Of a DNA stretch of 64,000 nt, positions 3,791 to 28,795 are shown one piece after another; within the stretch, counting starts at the first letter, position 1; every line of letters begins with the position of its first letter. This DNA comes from an uncultured Methylocystaceae bacterium (lineage in GTDB: Bacteria > Pseudomonadota > Alphaproteobacteria > Rhizobiales > Beijerinckiaceae), in the NCBI GenBank assembly GCA_903870245.1, contig CAIQCB010000018.1, forward strand, positions 1-64,000, written 5' to 3'. A program made the translations under genes and the position numbers. The notes under the pieces are model-generated. The model worked only from the letters and a program-made list of their open reading frames with translations. It was not told the DNA's origin and searched no databases.

Positions 3791-4306
3791 TTAATCAAGT
3801 CGCTGAACAACGGCATAAACGATCCCTCGGACCATGATGGATTGAACAACAGCACGTCGCAAAAATGGTCCGCTTACAAACTGATAATCATAACGCAATC
3901 CATCTCCTTTCCAAAATCCACTTGCTATTAATACATCAGAAAATTCAATAAAGTTCTCTCGCTCTTCCTCGGGTGTTTGCTCAAGGATCGCTAATCCCGC
4001 ACGAAATCCTGAGCTCTCGGACGCAGCTAGAACATTTGAGAATTCATCGGTAATGATCATCGGAAAAGGACTAGCATCGATAATTTTCAAGAGCCCATTA
4101 ATGGATTCTACACGCATTTCCTGAGCCATTCGTTCAATTTTTCCCTGATATTCAAGAAGCGGAATTCTTTCGCCCTTCTCCCACCGAGATACACTGGCCT
4201 GAGTCGTTCCAAGCTTCTGTGCAAAAGCCCGCTGATTAAGTTGCAAAATGGAGCGAACCTGACCAATTAAAGATGGCCAATAATGTTTTAGTGGCTCTTT
4301 GGACAT
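3791..4306 (-). CDS. XRE-family regulator with a PAS-like domain
   Basis: A 171-aa protein. Residues about 13-65 form a helix-turn-helix of the Cro/CI type (QRAFAQKLGTTQASVSRWEKGER). Residues about 70-165 look like a small PAS sensor domain (INGLLKIIDASPFPMIITDEFSNVLAASE). It is transcribed away from the nitrile hydratase operon across a 305-base shared upstream region, so it is the likely local regulator of that operon. The ligand is unknown. A fully conserved helix-turn-helix makes the DNA-binding role secure; the PAS assignment is less so. Confidence 0.85.
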   Translation of the reverse strand: MSKEPLKHYWPSLIGQVRSILQLNQRAFAQKLGTTQASVSRWEKGERIPLLEYQGKIERMAQEMRVESINGLLKIIDASPFPMIITDEFSNVLAASESSGFRAGLAILEQTPEEERENFIEFSDVLIASGFWKGDGLRYDYQFVSGPFLRRAVVQSIMVRGIVYAVVQRLD

Positions 4307-4611: not shown

Positions 4612-5619
4612 ATGCATGAAGACAATAATAATAATGATAAATCACAAAAAACCGAAATAAATGATCCATCTCAGCTGCCCTCTGGGTCCTCTCGTCGTGA
4701 CTTCTTCAAAAATGTTTCTGGGGGAGTGGTAAGCGCTGGTCTTACAGGAATTGCGGGAACCGCTTCTTCGACTATTCCCTCCCCTGCGGAAGCTGCAAAT
4801 GCGACGGCTTGCCCGACAGATGCCGATCCGACGCGCTGGTGGATCGGCGGCACGCCTATCCGTGATTGTGTCAATGAGTTCACACCACCCCAGAACATCA
4901 TGAATCCATTACCTGCGCGAGTAAATGCGCTTAAGGATCTCCTGATTTCCAAGGGCGTCGTCGATCAAGCCAAAATTGATGGCTTCGTACAATACTATTC
5001 GCAAATTATTACCCCAATGCTGGGGGCGGCCGTTGTTGTTCAGGCTTGGCAGGACCAGTCCTTCAAGCAGGCCTTACTCAATCCTCCGCCGTCACAACCC
5101 TTCTATGCCTCTATGTTGATCCGGAATTTCTTGACCGGGACAACAAACCCAAAAACGAATAAACCTTTTCTTGATCCAGCTAGCACTTTTGGCATGACGC
5201 TCGGGCCTGAGGGGGAATATATCCGGGTTGTGGCGAATGGACCTTTGAATAAACCTGAGACTTGTCCTGATGGCAGGCGAATTAGGCTTGTGCACAATCT
5301 AGTGGTTTGCACAGTTTGCTCTTGTTATCCGCAAGCCTTACTCGGCATCCAGCCAACCTGGTATAAATCACAACAATATCGCGCCAGAGCGATAGCAGAG
5401 CCCTTTGGGGTTCTCAAGGAATTTGCAGAAGACGCGGGACATAATATTGATGCCTATCTAAAATCAGTTGATGAGCTTCGAGTGTGGGATTCGAACTCAG
5501 AAGTCAGAATATTTGTAATACCTGAAATGCCATCGTCTTGGAAGGGATTGTCTTTTGAGGAAAAATTAAATCGAGTATCTCGAAATTCGATGCTCGGCGC
5601 GGAAATACTCTATGGTTAA
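4612..5619 (+). CDS. Tat-signal nitrile hydratase / thiocyanate hydrolase alpha-type subunit (cobalt type)
   Basis: A 335-aa catalytic subunit that should hydrate a nitrile to an amide, or hydrolyse thiocyanate. The metal site is plain: V-V-C233-T-V-C236-S237-C238-Y-P, the C-T-x-C-S-C form typical of Co(III) enzymes (iron enzymes have C-S-L-C-S-C). It is followed by the family block QPTWYKSQQYRARA. Oddly, the N-terminus carries a twin-arginine signal (SSRRDFFKN at 26-34, a hydrophobic run rich in G/A to about 62, and AEAAN as a likely cleavage site). Nitrile hydratases are normally cytoplasmic. The beta subunit has no signal, so a folded complex might be exported together. The start has a GGGGA site 7 bases upstream. 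Confidence 0.9.
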   Translation: MHEDNNNNDKSQKTEINDPSQLPSGSSRRDFFKNVSGGVVSAGLTGIAGTASSTIPSPAEAANATACPTDADPTRWWIGGTPIRDCVNEFTPPQNIMNPLPARVNALKDLLISKGVVDQAKIDGFVQYYSQIITPMLGAAVVVQAWQDQSFKQALLNPPPSQPFYASMLIRNFLTGTTNPKTNKPFLDPASTFGMTLGPEGEYIRVVANGPLNKPETCPDGRRIRLVHNLVVCTVCSCYPQALLGIQPTWYKSQQYRARAIAEPFGVLKEFAEDAGHNIDAYLKSVDELRVWDSNSEVRIFVIPEMPSSWKGLSFEEKLNRVSRNSMLGAEILYG

Positions 5620-5682
5620 AGAATTATATTCGTCATCATGTTCTTGATTACAGGTTCTCTAGAATAAGATAAGGAGAGCGTT

Positions 5683-6561
5683 ATGGAAGGTCCGCATTTT
5701 AACGCCGGCTGGAGAGGTTACGGAAAAATTCCAGAAAAATATCAGCCGTATACGGATAAAACCGTATGGGATGAGCCGTGGGAAGGCACCCTAACGGCGA
5801 TGGTGGCTCTGCTTACCAATTATGGAAATGGCTTTCGCCCACCTCCGCCCAGAGAGACAGAACCATTCTGGGGCCTGGATGCATTTCGTTGGGCGCGTGA
5901 ATGCATGCATCCCAGAGATTATATGAATTCGAATTATTATGCGCTTTGGCTTGATGCAATAGCTGCTCTAATCGATAATTATGGCGCGTATATGGGTAAG
6001 GGTGTCTCCTCGCAAGAAATGATCAACTTGGGCATTGTCTCTGCGGCAGAACTTAATCGAGCGCGGGATATCCGCAGGCAAGCCAAGAACGAAACAGTTC
6101 CGGGATGTGGTAAGCCAAATTATCAGGGAGAGTATGCCTCATCGAAATATGATCCAAAAGTAGTCAATGGAGGCATATCAGCGATTGGTTATCATCCAAA
6201 ATTCCGTCTGGGTCAGAACGTATGGTTTATCCGCCAGCAGTCGAGCGGACATACCAGAGAATACCCATATTCTCGTGGTCGGCTGGGAACAATTGTGGCT
6301 TATTACGGACTGGCTCCGCAAGTTTGGATGAATAATCAGCTGCAATTTACTGGTAAATATATGGAAGGCTATGCTGATATTTGGTGCAGAGGGTTACAAC
6401 GCTTCTATGCGCCGCTGTATAGTGTCAAATTTTACGCTGCCGAACTTTGGGGGATAGGATATTCAGATCCCAGACAAGTCGTATACGTGGATGCTTATGA
6501 ACCATATATTTCATCTCGATATGGCTCATATCTATTGAATGAAAGAGATGACGAAAGATGA
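5683..6561 (+). CDS. Nitrile hydratase beta-type subunit
   Basis: A 292-aa partner of the preceding alpha-type subunit. The N-terminal half is helical, as in NHase beta (HFNAGWRGYGKIP, FWGLDAFRWARECM, Y-ALWLDAIAALI). The C-terminal half has the beta-barrel signature (FRLGQNVWFIRQ, GHTREYPYSRGRLGTIV, then APLYSVKFYAAELWG). Both halves are in one chain, unlike classical thiocyanate hydrolase, where they are separate alpha and beta chains. A strong AAGGAG site precedes the start. The gene lies 63 bases after the alpha gene and overlaps the next gene by 4 bases (ATGA), so it is translationally coupled to it. Confidence 0.9.
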   Translation: MEGPHFNAGWRGYGKIPEKYQPYTDKTVWDEPWEGTLTAMVALLTNYGNGFRPPPPRETEPFWGLDAFRWARECMHPRDYMNSNYYALWLDAIAALIDNYGAYMGKGVSSQEMINLGIVSAAELNRARDIRRQAKNETVPGCGKPNYQGEYASSKYDPKVVNGGISAIGYHPKFRLGQNVWFIRQQSSGHTREYPYSRGRLGTIVAYYGLAPQVWMNNQLQFTGKYMEGYADIWCRGLQRFYAPLYSVKFYAAELWGIGYSDPRQVVYVDAYEPYISSRYGSYLLNERDDER

Positions 6562-7112
6562 AAACAACTCAAAATTATATTGAAGAACTTGATAATGAAC
6601 CGATAACGCCTTTGCCAAAAGATAGAGGCGAGCCTGTCTTCAAGGATTCTTGGGAGGCAGAAGCTTTTGCTATTGGGAATCTACTTGTCAAGTCCGGTTT
6701 CATCAGCGCATCTGAATGGATGTCACGGATGGGTAATGCAATTAGAGCTGCTCAAATGCGGGGTGATCCTGATCGGGGAGATACATACTATTATCATTGG
6801 ATGGACGCACTAGAATCATTATGCCTCGACAGAGGCTTAACATCCACTGAATTGTACATTCATAATGTTCATTTATGGGATAGAGCAATAGAAAATACTC
6901 CTCACGGAGTGGCAATCTCTATTGAAAATGCTCTTATGATCCCAGAAGCGCCTAACCCGAATATTGCGCATCCACTTCATGCGCATCGGCGCCACCATCA
7001 TCATGGACCAAGTGAACATCATATACATGATGATGAACATGCATCGGAATGTGGAGCCAGCAATCATCCCCCTGGAAATTTTTATGAACCAGTCGCTATA
7101 CATCGTCGTTAA
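6558..7112 (+). CDS. Nitrile hydratase activator-like protein with a His-rich tail
   Basis: A 184-aa protein resembling the small activators (P14K type) and the N-terminal half of NHase beta: EPVFKDSWEAEAFAIGNLL, then F-SASEWMSRMGNAIRAA and YYYHWMDALESL. Cobalt enzymes need such a protein to bring the metal into the alpha subunit. Residues about 137-165 are packed with histidines (HPLHAHRRHHHHG, then HHIHDDEHASE), a metal-binding tail that fits cobalt storage or delivery. It starts inside the stop of the beta gene. Whether it is a chaperone or a third structural subunit cannot be decided from sequence alone. Confidence 0.8.
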   Translation: MKTTQNYIEELDNEPITPLPKDRGEPVFKDSWEAEAFAIGNLLVKSGFISASEWMSRMGNAIRAAQMRGDPDRGDTYYYHWMDALESLCLDRGLTSTELYIHNVHLWDRAIENTPHGVAISIENALMIPEAPNPNIAHPLHAHRRHHHHGPSEHHIHDDEHASECGASNHPPGNFYEPVAIHRR

Positions 7113-7140
7113 AAAATATAATTAAATAGGAGAGTCTCAA

Positions 7141-7329
7141 ATGCTAATTCAAATGAAAAATAAAATTTTCCTTGAACGACTGAATGCAACTACAGATCAT
7201 TTGCTCACGGCCATTTTATCGCTCTTAATTGGTAGCTTCCTTTTGTTTGTAGTGGGTTTTTCCTCGTCCGATGCACTACATCAAGAAACTCATGATGTGA
7301 GGCATAGTCTATCCTTCCCTTGTCATTAG
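7141..7329 (+). CDS. cbtB: CbtB-type cobalt transporter subunit
   Basis: A 62-aa protein with one membrane helix (about 21-42, LLTAILSLLIGSFLLFVVGF) and the C-terminal histidine signature H-x3-HDVRHSLSFPCH that marks CbtB, the small subunit of a proposed cobalt importer. It starts behind a good AGGAGAG site 28 bases after the activator-like gene, so it is in the same operon and presumably supplies cobalt to the hydratase. The usual large partner CbtA is not found downstream. The context supports a Co rather than Fe enzyme. Confidence 0.88.
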   Translation: MLIQMKNKIFLERLNATTDHLLTAILSLLIGSFLLFVVGFSSSDALHQETHDVRHSLSFPCH

Positions 7330-8228: not shown

Positions 8229-8477
8229 TTACTTTTGCCTGCTCAGTAATTCTTTCTCTATAAGAGTAGACAGATCGCCAAAGGTTCGACATGAGCCAAC
8301 CTGTACCTGATCAAGCTCAAACTCCAGCTTCTCTTCAAGAGCCATCACCAGCTCGAACTCTCCAAGACTATCGAGCCCAAGGCTTTCCAGTGACGTCTCC
8401 TCGTCAAATTTCTGTAAATCCTTCAATTTTAAGGAGATGATCGTATCGGTCAAAATCTCAAAGGCTTTGCTAGACAT
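8229..8477 (-). CDS. Acyl carrier protein
   Basis: An 82-aa four-helix carrier protein. Ser37 in the motif E-S-L-G-L-D-S-L-G-E-F-E is the expected attachment site for 4'-phosphopantetheine. The start ATG (8475-8477) lies inside the end of the P450 gene, an 8-base overlap, so the two are translationally coupled. This suggests that the P450 or the acyltransferase-like protein of this cluster acts on a substrate held on this carrier, as P450 BioI does on acyl-ACP. It is not the housekeeping AcpP, which reads G-A-D-S-L-D-T-V-E. Confidence 0.88.
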   Translation of the reverse strand: MSSKAFEILTDTIISLKLKDLQKFDEETSLESLGLDSLGEFELVMALEEKLEFELDQVQVGSCRTFGDLSTLIEKELLSRQK

Positions 8478-9534
8478 CAAATCGAACCTTGATGGACTGA
8501 GGGTAATTAAAGACGTAGTCGCCAGTTCGTTCGCTGACATCAAGCACCACCATTCGGCGAGGGATGGCTGAGAGAAACTCAGTGAACTTCGCCCATATTT
8601 GCCTGCTCAAGTTCATGCCTACGCATTTGTGGCTACCTACCGCGAAAAATAGATCGCTGTATCGCGGATGCTGATCCGGAAAAAGGCCGTCTGCCTCAAT
8701 GAACAACCTGACTCTGTCGCCCTTTTTAAGTTCGAACGGGCCCAATACGGTATCACGCGCTACAATTTTCTCAATGAGCGGAAGCCCGGTTCGCAACAAA
8801 TCTGCGCTCCAGTCCATTTCAGAGAGCAATCTTCCAGGTTGCAAATGCAGTGTTTCTACGATCGTCAGGCTGATAGAGCTGGGAAGTGTATTCGCGCTAA
8901 GTGCGATCACAGCACAACTGAAATATTTTTGCTCCTGAGTCCATTTATTCGGAAAAGCGCTCACGATATTGTTTAAAAGTTCGATGATCGTTTTTCGCCG
9001 CATCGGAGAGATCGCGTCGTCAAGGAACTGAGGGATCATTTCCACGGCGAATTCTTCGGGTAGTCGCGTGTTGGCAAGCGAACCGATGACTTTCAACATC
9101 ACTGGCCGCATAAAGTACGAGTAAAAACAAAACTCCTCTTCACGGTCAATTTTGAGGAGCGCCAATTTCCTGGCATCCAGTTCATCCTCAAGAGATTTGA
9201 GCACACAAGCGGTCTGCTGGGTAATATGGCGCGCAAATTTCTCTCGAAGTATGGCATGTCTTTCACCTTCCTCGGCCATAGGAAACCATTTTCTGATTTC
9301 CTCAACGTGGTGAAGATCGACACCCATTTTTCTCATGACAGGCGAAAAATCAAAGGCAGGAACATCAAAGGCCCGATCGGACATTGCCTGCCGGATCAGC
9401 TGCGGACAGGTCACCATCCACCTCTTAAGCTCATCCGAGAACCATATGCCGGGTGGATAATGATAAATCGCTCCTCTTTGGGGTTCTTTCTGAAGAAGAT
9501 ATTCTGTCATGCCATTATAATTCCCGTCTAACAT
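8470..9534 (-). CDS. Divergent cytochrome P450
   Basis: A 354-aa haem-thiolate enzyme, shorter than the usual 400 or so. The haem loop reads F-A-V-G-S-H-K-C304-V-G and fits F-x2-G-x3-C-x-G with Cys304 as axial ligand. Two usually fixed sites are changed. The K-helix E-x-x-R is replaced by D-L-L-R (SADLLRTGLP). The I-helix, normally A-G-x-E/D-T-T, reads S-A-N-T-L-P-S-S and lacks the acid of the acid-alcohol pair used for proton delivery. The enzyme may therefore use an unusual reaction, such as peroxide-driven or coupling chemistry. A start at Met9 is also possible. It is followed directly by the ACP gene. Confidence 0.85.
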   Translation of the reverse strand: MLDGNYNGMTEYLLQKEPQRGAIYHYPPGIWFSDELKRWMVTCPQLIRQAMSDRAFDVPAFDFSPVMRKMGVDLHHVEEIRKWFPMAEEGERHAILREKFARHITQQTACVLKSLEDELDARKLALLKIDREEEFCFYSYFMRPVMLKVIGSLANTRLPEEFAVEMIPQFLDDAISPMRRKTIIELLNNIVSAFPNKWTQEQKYFSCAVIALSANTLPSSISLTIVETLHLQPGRLLSEMDWSADLLRTGLPLIEKIVARDTVLGPFELKKGDRVRLFIEADGLFPDQHPRYSDLFFAVGSHKCVGMNLSRQIWAKFTEFLSAIPRRMVVLDVSERTGDYVFNYPQSIKVRFDV

Positions 9535-26764: not shown

Positions 26765-27019
26765 AACATTTCAAAATTTAGCGAAAATCAGTGATAATAA
26801 TGGTTTTACATATCAGCTTATAGAGCTAGAACGGCGCATTTAAGTCAAAATTTTCCGAATAGGTTTCTTTGAAATAACCTCAGCTTGGAGTTTGTCGAAA
26901 AGGCTGTCTGAAAGACGGTGCCATAAAAAACACCATATTCTGTAAATTATCTGGATCAGATTAATTCGTCTTAGCAGCATTCCGGACTACGAATGGTAAT
27001 GATGCAAGGAGACTTACCA

Positions 27020-28795
27020 ATGCGGCTCTATTACTCAGATGAATGTGAGTGCATTAACATGACTATAAGCCAGTCATCTCACTCACCGAATTTATGCACT
27101 CTAGGCGCATTTTGGGTGCGTTCATTGGCTTTATTATGCACTAGGAATATAAGAAATAAGTTACTATTTATATTGTCGGCGATTGCTGCCTTTTCATTTC
27201 AAGAAATCGCTTGGAGCCAGCAAATCAATTATACAATAAATACTATGAATTTATCGCCTGTCATAGGATATGCGAGATTGCAACAGTTTAACACTCCAAT
27301 CAATCCTGCAACAATCAATGCGAATGCGATTGGGCAGTCGATAGCAACTGGGAACGGTGCTTTAGCTATAGGGGCAGGTAGTCAAGTACAAAATTTTCCA
27401 AATACTCCAGTGAACGCCCAAGAGACATTGGTCTATGATGTTGGGGCGTCTGCTACTGGAGACCGATCAATCGCGATTGGGACAGGTCAAGGTAATCAAG
27501 CCCGGTTGTTAATTCAGCAAAACTATACACCGAACAACCCTTGCCAATCTGATAATAGCGGTTTCCTGAATTGTTCAGGCCAAGTCACGCTAGTAGGACT
27601 TGGTGCTACAGCGAACGATGCTATTGCTATAGGTACGGCCGCATCGGCCTCGCATACAAATTCAACGGCAATTGGATTGAATTCTGCAACTTCTAGGCAG
27701 AATCAGCAAACATTTGGATCGTCAATAAATAATTATACACTTTCCGGTTTGACCACTGGCGGAAACTTCCAAAGTGGAGCGACTTACATGGTAACAACGG
27801 ATTCGGGCGGCAATCTCGCTTATGCTGCCATACCCGCTCCAGCAATAGATCCTTGTGCTTCCGTGACACAGACTGGAACCAATGCCATAGGTTGTGGAGA
27901 CGGGGCATCGGCCGGGGGAGCCGGAGCAAGCGCCTATGGGAAAAACGCAAATGCCTCAGCTACGAATTCAGTTGCAGTTGGCAATGGGGCCACGGCCTCA
28001 ATAGTCGATAGCGTTGCACTAGGTTCAAATTCCGTAACAAGCGTAATAAACACTGGTTTATATACAATAAATGGTGGGTCAATTTCAGGCGCAGGCTCAA
28101 TTGGAAGCACTTTAAGTGTTGGCGCAATTGGATCGGAGAGACAAATCCAAAATGTTGGCGCAGGTGTGGTATCGGAAGCGTCAACTAACGCCGTCAACGG
28201 TTCGCAACTTTATGCGGTTGGATCACAGGTTAATCTGAATACATCAAACATAAGCAATTTAAACACAACTGTTTCTTCTCAAGGAAAGCAAATCAGTTCC
28301 AATGCTGCGAACATTTTTGATGCAGGTCAAACAACAGCAGCAGCACTTGGGGGAGGAGCTACTTACACTTCTAATGGTGGGATAAGTGCGCCATCATACA
28401 GGGTTCAAGGTTCTGTGTATAATAATGCTGGATCAGCGATAGGTGCGATTAATTCCCAATTGGGACTTCATGAAAATCAGATTTCTAACATAAATACTGC
28501 GCTTGGTGGCTTGGGCGCAGGATTAGTCATTACAAATCAGCGGCTTGAAGGTATTGATAGAAAAGCGATGCAGGGTGTAGCAATTGCTGGAGCAATGGTT
28601 GCGGCACCAATGCCATCAAGTCCAGGGAAAACTCGAATAAAGTTGAATAACGCATATTATCGTGGTTACGGCGCTACATCAATATCTGTGGCTCATCGAT
28701 TGCCTGTAAATATGCCGGCAGCAATAACGGCTGGAGCTTCGTTAGGTTATCGAAATTCCGTTATGGTATCAGGCGGTATGGAGGTTGAGTTTTGA
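27020..28795 (+). CDS. Trimeric autotransporter adhesin (YadA-like)
   Basis: A 591-aa surface protein. The ATG at 27020 has a GGAG site 8 bases upstream. An extended signal region ends at about 66 (LLFILSAIAAFSFQEIAWSQ). The head has repeats of the A-I-G-x-x-A-x-A type (SIATGNGALAIGAGSQVQ, DRSIAIGTGQGNQA, DAIAIGTAASASHTNSTAIG, TNSVAVGNGATASIVDSVAL). Next come a neck (VSEASTNAVNGSQLYAVG), a coiled-coil stalk, and a C-terminal YadA anchor (IDRKAMQGVAIAGAM to MEVEF) that forms a 12-strand trimeric barrel. It should mediate attachment to surfaces or other cells. The gene after it may be in the same operon. Confidence 0.93.
   Translation: MRLYYSDECECINMTISQSSHSPNLCTLGAFWVRSLALLCTRNIRNKLLFILSAIAAFSFQEIAWSQQINYTINTMNLSPVIGYARLQQFNTPINPATINANAIGQSIATGNGALAIGAGSQVQNFPNTPVNAQETLVYDVGASATGDRSIAIGTGQGNQARLLIQQNYTPNNPCQSDNSGFLNCSGQVTLVGLGATANDAIAIGTAASASHTNSTAIGLNSATSRQNQQTFGSSINNYTLSGLTTGGNFQSGATYMVTTDSGGNLAYAAIPAPAIDPCASVTQTGTNAIGCGDGASAGGAGASAYGKNANASATNSVAVGNGATASIVDSVALGSNSVTSVINTGLYTINGGSISGAGSIGSTLSVGAIGSERQIQNVGAGVVSEASTNAVNGSQLYAVGSQVNLNTSNISNLNTTVSSQGKQISSNAANIFDAGQTTAAALGGGATYTSNGGISAPSYRVQGSVYNNAGSAIGAINSQLGLHENQISNINTALGGLGAGLVITNQRLEGIDRKAMQGVAIAGAMVAAPMPSSPGKTRIKLNNAYYRGYGATSISVAHRLPVNMPAAITAGASLGYRNSVMVSGGMEVEF

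Follow-up and report, generated by a model that had tools for sequence, protein, structure and literature searches.

Nitrile hydratases are generally regarded as intracellular enzymes, the metal site of which is built with an activator, either by subunit exchange or by direct metal transfer. In thiocyanate hydrolase, the beta domains are split over two proteins. For Co-type activators, roles in self-subunit swapping and as metallochaperones are described in the available part of one report (PMC7193024), and the twin-arginine translocation (Tat) pathway is described, in the available part of another, as carrying partners that lack a signal of their own, as in HybOC and PaoABC (PMC4273604). Here, an operon is described from a stretch of 64,000 nucleotides, hereafter the window, that forms part of contig CAIQCB010000018.1 in the assembly of an uncultured Methylocystaceae bacterium (GCA_903870245.1). 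The operon (positions 4612-7329) encodes homologs of the alpha and beta subunits of nitrile hydratase, a His-tailed accessory protein, and CbtB, and the alpha subunit opens with a Tat-like segment that is retained in two cyanobacterial relatives. These features suggest, with a probability of roughly 0.7, that the operon encodes an enzyme that would work outside the cytoplasm, either a cobalt nitrile hydratase or a functionally close relative with some other small C-N triple-bond compound as its substrate.

Residues 27-33 of the alpha subunit read S-R-R-D-F-F-K, as a first-pass annotation made from the DNA letters had recorded; an uncharged stretch of 26 residues (34-59) comes next, along with several candidate A-x-A-type sites that end at residues 59-66. 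The typical Tat motif of thiocyanate dehydrogenase, an unrelated periplasmic enzyme, is given as [ST]-R-R-x-F-L-K in the available portion of PMC5328954. A Tat rule devised for this work, and not SignalP, was applied (RR-x-two hydrophobic residues, 15 uncharged residues, and hydrophobicity); 3 of 97 distinct alpha open reading frames (ORFs) passed it, namely those of the window and of loci L003 and L107. These ORFs were gathered by a metal-motif pattern at the loci of the best matches (at most 30 per search), after seven duplicate loci had been removed, and repeats were merged; many weaker matches, which had no locus, fall outside the count. None of 100,000 shuffles of residues 2-75 passed the rule for any of the three proteins, and the Tat-like segment is more than chance. 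The corresponding segments are PRRSFLRN in the L003 alpha and SRRKFLQN in the L107 alpha, with a hydrophobic stretch after each, such that the three proteins have in common RRxF[FL]xN and an uncharged hydrophobic stretch; among window residues 1-60, only M1, R28, R29, F31, N34, A42, and G43 are invariant in an alignment of the three. The RR pair lies in frame, 205, 201, and 198 residues from the metal motif in the window alpha and its two relatives, and no Met occurs in the window alpha in the interval between residues 1 and 97. The first-pass annotation had reasoned that export would fail as an idea if close relatives began after the RR segment; L003 and L107 instead keep the pair in frame at similar spacing, and since two distant cyanobacterial relatives begin likewise, the Tat-like start is probably real. 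A TatC gene is present in the genome of the window, and its product is closest, among named plasmid records, to those of Methylobacterium (64%) and Microvirga (62%), which points to an alphaproteobacterial host; no 16S match turned up in this genome.

The first relative, L003, belongs to Cyanobium sp. LBMAG and was recovered by scanning genome contigs with six short peptides of the window alpha, a species scan of limited reach; it is 53% identical over residues 78-333. The second (L078/L107, genome G827) came from a search of 388 genomes of the class of Cyanobium. Across their alphas, L003 and L107 are 46 and 52% identical to the window protein, and both loci keep the alpha-beta-accessory order and the His tail (the L107 alpha, beta, accessory, and porin sequences were used minus the last residue of each, on which no conclusion rests). 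In a quick tree of the 97 alphas, the three Tat-type proteins form one clade (SH-aLRT 100) on a stem of 2.29 changes per site. They are also the only ones with the metal motif CTVCSCY; CTLCSC is found in 86 of the 97 and CTLCSCY in 85, and a T in this motif is general (93 of 97). Further, an insertion of about 30 residues precedes the metal site, the core of which, NPxTxxP[FY], occurs in exactly these three alphas and in no other of the 97. Alphas of other species in the genus of the window (L034/L035; G017, G015) have the Fe-type motif CSLCSC and no Tat-like start.

Samples from the order (322 genomes), phylum (299), and class (385) to which the window belongs, and a set of 101 relatives, each yielded one genome with a full-length Tat-type alpha, in every case the window's own, and the cyanobacterial samples yielded 2 of 388, 1 of 250, and 1 of 242 genomes; the genomes concerned were always G000 (that of the window), G482, and G827. 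It should be noted that the samples overlap, that most were drawn from larger groups, and that in the scans of 322, 299, 385, 388, and 242 genomes scoring was confined to the few top candidates of each genome. No relative was found among viral contigs. The window alpha matches 177 plasmid records and the L107 alpha 115, with no identity of at least 60% among the best 40 and best 15 matches, respectively. In two of the plasmid matches with unusually high coverage (H1 and H22), the additional coverage came from the neighboring beta gene and not from a Tat segment. The GC content of the operon is 45% and that of the first 12 kb of the window is 42-44%, as compared to 59-61% in two stretches elsewhere in the genome. 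Given this low GC content and the presence of relatives in another phylum, horizontal transfer of the operon is likely. The flanking cyclase and VIT/VWA genes are also low in GC3, indicating that the low-GC stretch extends beyond the operon. From 32 kb on, the GC content of the window is 52-64%, above that of the operon region.

The alpha subunit scores 155.3 bits against Pfam NHase_alpha (PF02979; cut-off 27.2), its best phmmer match is the Co-type nitrile hydratase alpha 4ob1 (E 7.5e-46), and its metal site, C233-T-V-C236-S-C238, is where the first-pass annotation had placed a Co-type motif. In the beta subunit, NHase_beta_N (63.2 bits) and NHase_beta_C (48.4 bits) are both recognized (PF21006 and PF02211, both above cut-off), and R69 and R192 occupy the positions of Arg52 and Arg157 in an alignment with the solved beta chain of the Co-type nitrile hydratase from Pseudonocardia thermophila (1ugp_B). 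In nitrile hydratases, these arginines contact the oxidized cysteines and have a catalytic role. The active site of the window enzyme looks intact. The accessory protein passes NCBIfam TIGR03889, 'nitrile hydratase accessory protein' (56.2 bits, cut-off 46), and matches Pfam NHase_beta_N at 27.7 bits. CbtB is assigned by Pfam PF09489 (64.5 bits, cut-off 27) and, narrowly, by NCBIfam TIGR02459 (65.9 bits, cut-off 64.4). The coordinates and features first reported for the four ORFs, including a His-tailed, activator-like third gene and CbtB as the fourth, accordingly hold, with all four intact and assigned by Pfam or NCBIfam. Both catalytic subunits score under the NCBIfam equivalog cut-offs for nitrile hydratase (alpha, nitrile_alph, 156.7 against 249.85 bits; beta, nitrile_beta, 104.6 against 152.2 bits), indicating that they are divergent; by profile comparison, they are homologous to nitrile hydratases yet outside the equivalogs. 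An AlphaFold2 model of alpha (window and L003) reached a mean pLDDT of 37 and a pTM of 0.28 and was set aside and not used. Three further cysteines of the window alpha (residues 67, 86, and 218) have no counterpart in L003 or L107; a disulphide in the exported form of the window protein is possible, though not conserved.

The equivalog scores also bear on the substrate. An exported enzyme could act on thiocyanate, cyanide, or isonitrile and not on a nitrile, an alternative that is entertained only tentatively and that overlaps the preferred reading, in which the substrate is left open. Consistent with it, alpha falls short of the thiocyanate hydrolase gamma model too (TIGR03887, 86.9 against 291.45 bits), the clade has its own insertion and long stem, and no amidase occurs among the window ORFs scanned. 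The beta subunit, on the other hand, is a single fused protein with N- and C-terminal domains, as in nitrile hydratases, and is not split; score and domain arrangement both place the window proteins outside thiocyanate hydrolase.

Export of a cobalt nitrile hydratase or close relative is a prediction that is well supported by conservation, and several points weigh against it. NCBIfam Tat model TIGR01409 gives 11.6 bits for the window alpha, 16.3 for L003, and 17.3 for L107, against a cut-off of 16.7, and Pfam scans matched no Tat model. The n-region through the RR pair is atypical in being net acidic in the window (-1) and L003 (-2), with a positive charge (+2) in L107 only. Three members were found in all, the window operon has no neighboring porin gene (see below), and the missed equivalog cut-offs make nitrile a putative substrate. 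Additionally, the available part of PMC3680314 describes an artificial pelB (Sec) signal on a P. putida alpha subunit and its activator that was uncleaved, with activity staying in the cell extract; this experiment concerns Sec and not Tat, but it shows that outward movement of nitrile hydratase is not automatic.

The sub-threshold Tat score of the window protein would also fit a cytoplasmic nitrile hydratase whose N-terminal RR segment is an unstructured extension that plays no part in export. Odd N-termini do occur elsewhere, with a His-rich stretch upstream of the alpha core in 28 of the 94 other alphas, and the literature consulted mentions no nitrile hydratase that naturally bears an export signal; the words cytoplasm, intracellular, and extracellular and the stem secret- are absent from the review PMC7193024. 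This explanation is nevertheless unlikely. RRxF[FL]xN and at least 15 uncharged residues are kept in three diverged proteins, whereas most flanking N-terminal residues are not, and in the Tat-type clade the His-rich segment is on the accessory protein and not on alpha.

Preference for an exported enzyme raises the question of its partners. As first reported, beta has no visible signal: no twin arginine occurs within its first 40 residues, and the protein starts with a conserved M-[ED]-G-P-H of its own, so that a signal would have no space. That alpha alone bears a signal, and that its cleavage site in the window is not sharply defined (several A-x-A-type sites), such that an uncleaved anchor is possible, could be taken to mean that alpha is exported or anchored alone or with some other partner, with beta a cytoplasmic assembly factor and the active form not alpha-beta, but this is highly improbable as beta retains both domains and both arginines, in keeping with a role in completing the active site. 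The accessory proteins of the Tat-type loci, in turn, have 11 (L003), 13 (window), and 15 (L107) His in their last 60 residues, as compared to 0-8 in 78 other accessory rows. These 81 rows represent one best match per locus, after frames longer than 330 amino acids and beta-like frames were dropped; they include three repeats (L042, L044, and L045), some doubtful starts, and one entry (L072) that is probably the end of a beta gene. At the loci whose alpha is a predicted export substrate, the His-rich segment would thus sit on the partner predicted to remain in the cytoplasm.

A sequence of events can be proposed for an exported alpha-beta enzyme. Alpha would be made with an N-terminal Tat signal, and the His-tailed accessory protein would load cobalt into its CTVCSC site in the cytoplasm and aid cysteine oxidation, a step suggested by the known role of Co-type activators. 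Cobalt-loaded alpha would then join signal-less beta, and the folded pair would cross the inner membrane by Tat, with beta riding on alpha and the accessory protein staying behind for reuse. Catalysis would take place in the periplasm or, in cyanobacteria, possibly in the thylakoid lumen. In the cyanobacterial relatives, the substrate would enter the periplasm through an outer-membrane porin encoded upstream of alpha. There, a gene for an SLH/OprB 'iron uptake porin' (NF033921, above cut-off) ends directly upstream of alpha, at a distance of 37 bases in L003 and 103 bases in L107, and the two porins are about 46-47% identical. No porin match was found at the other 103 of 105 nitrile hydratase loci, which include repeats of some genes and mostly have flanks of 1.5 kb, such that absence of a porin or of CbtB holds for that distance only.

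CbtB is last in the operon, and CbtA is not there. The only CbtA match in the genome is on contig 41 (L113), beside another CbtB and genes that, from their translations, read as CobW and CobO; this is probably the general cobalt/cobalamin locus of the genome. No CbtB match occurs around the L003 and L107 operons (stretches of 9.2 and 12 kb), and CbtB also lies close to nitrile hydratase genes at six further loci (L049, L061, L109, L110, and the two G007 loci L036 and L037), showing that it is not specific to the Tat-type system; as a marker of that type it was rejected. CbtB backs cobalt as the metal in a general way and not as the operon's own importer. The first-pass annotation had envisioned an exported cobalt metallo-hydratase with its own cobalt importer and a self-contained metal supply, citing three independent signs of cobalt. 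The Tat-like signal, Co-type motif, and His-tailed accessory protein of that interpretation stand, and the private cobalt supply does not, given that CbtB occurs alone in the operon and the one CbtA is elsewhere with a CbtB of its own. The three signs (motif, His tail, and CbtB) are all present, but with T general in the motif and the orphan CbtB local to this genome, they are weaker than claimed.

Distances of 63, -4, and 28 bases separate alpha from beta, beta from the accessory gene, and the accessory gene from CbtB, making it likely that the four plus-strand genes form one operon (Table 1). GGAGA-type ribosome sites precede beta and CbtB, and the site before alpha is less clear. A scan for promoters and terminators was uninformative, with 6 promoter-like sites (8.9 in shuffles) and 3 terminator-like sites (2.6 in shuffles, sd 1.3). 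By position only, the divergent helix-turn-helix (HTH) gene is a possible regulator of the operon. The alpha-beta-accessory order was considered, from the available part of PMC7193024, as unusual for Co-type enzymes, a point that was dropped on finding alpha-beta in 78 of the 105 loci, repeats included.

Table 1. Positions of the operon genes, of two segments within alpha, and of the divergent upstream gene in the window.
Feature	Position	Strand	Remarks
Nitrile hydratase alpha-type subunit	4612..5619	+	335 aa, intact; Co-type CTVCSC at C233/C236/C238
Predicted Tat signal region of alpha	4612..4803	+	n-region, SRRDFF 27-32, uncharged stretch, A-x-A-type sites
Alpha insertion	5083..5178	+	~30 residues before metal site; PPxxxPFxAxxxxRxFLxxTxNPxTxxP[FY]
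Nitrile hydratase beta subunit	5683..6561	+	292 aa, intact; both N- and C-terminal domains present, export signal not visible
Co-type nitrile hydratase accessory (activator) protein	6558..7112	+	184 aa, intact; His-rich C-terminal tail
CbtB	7141..7329	+	62 aa, intact; C-terminal HDVRHSLSFPCH; no adjoining CbtA
Divergent HTH regulator	3791..4306	-	171 aa; HTH_3 29.5 bits (Pfam)

Elsewhere in the window, the minus strand at 8229-9534 encodes an acyl-carrier-like protein (PF00550) that overlaps a 354-aa ORF; the latter has no Pfam or NCBIfam match and contains a P450-like FAVGSHKCVG segment. Positions 26993-28795 encode a trimeric autotransporter-like protein that contains YadA head and stalk repeats. 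The region 30446-62484 is prophage-like, with genes for a terminase, lambda-type portal, S49 protease, capsid E, baseplate, and tail; its terminase-capsid DNA resembles that of Microcystis phage Mae-JY30 (67% over 20% of 7 kb).

No naturally exported nitrile hydratase is described in the available portions of the open-access literature searched, a search that left subscription papers and supplements outside, and none is found in the portions available of PMC11928666, PMC5744179, PMC6504805, PMC3323583, PMC10098168, PMC3680314, PMC12993501, and PMC5328954, where Tat is mentioned in connection with thiocyanate dehydrogenase, further proteins from the same cluster, or tools. On the fuller proposal that the three operons represent a rarely sampled, cross-phylum lineage of periplasmic Co-type nitrile hydratases, combining cytoplasmic cobalt loading, Tat export of alpha-beta, a His store on the accessory protein, and, in cyanobacteria, a dedicated porin, our judgment is evenly balanced. 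A Tat-exported form of the enzyme would mean that a site of cobalt and oxidized cysteines can be finished before membrane passage, that beta can hitchhike, and that cells process a nitrile or a related compound in the periplasm. It would also offer a natural template for an exported form of nitrile hydratase, an enzyme heavily used in industry.

Compared to known systems, the operon most closely recalls Co-type nitrile hydratase (EC 4.2.1.84; P. thermophila 1ugp/1ire/4ob1), with which it shares both subunit domains, C-T-x-C-S-C, the beta arginines, and a small activator gene, and from which it differs in its Tat-like alpha start, 30-residue insertion, CTVCSC motif, His-tailed activator, and sub-equivalog scores. 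Thiocyanate hydrolase (ScnABC) has a homologous Co-dependent alpha-type subunit (gamma), whereas the window beta is one protein with both domains and the window alpha scores 86.9 bits with TIGR03887 against 156.7 with the nitrile hydratase model. Operons on plasmids of Rhizobium beringeri and Caballeronia insecticola similarly cluster nitrile hydratase alpha, beta, accessory, and CbtB genes; their alphas (205 and 207 aa) are without a Tat-like start, their order is beta-alpha-accessory, and the C. insecticola cluster, unlike the window, also has CbtA. The Tat hitchhikers E. coli hydrogenase-2 (HybOC) and PaoABC are unrelated to the window operon in protein and cofactor, and the co-export suggested here is a prediction; the arrangement is nonetheless alike, with one subunit bearing a Tat signal, one or more signal-less partners, and a metallocofactor that, in the operon described here, would be loaded before export.

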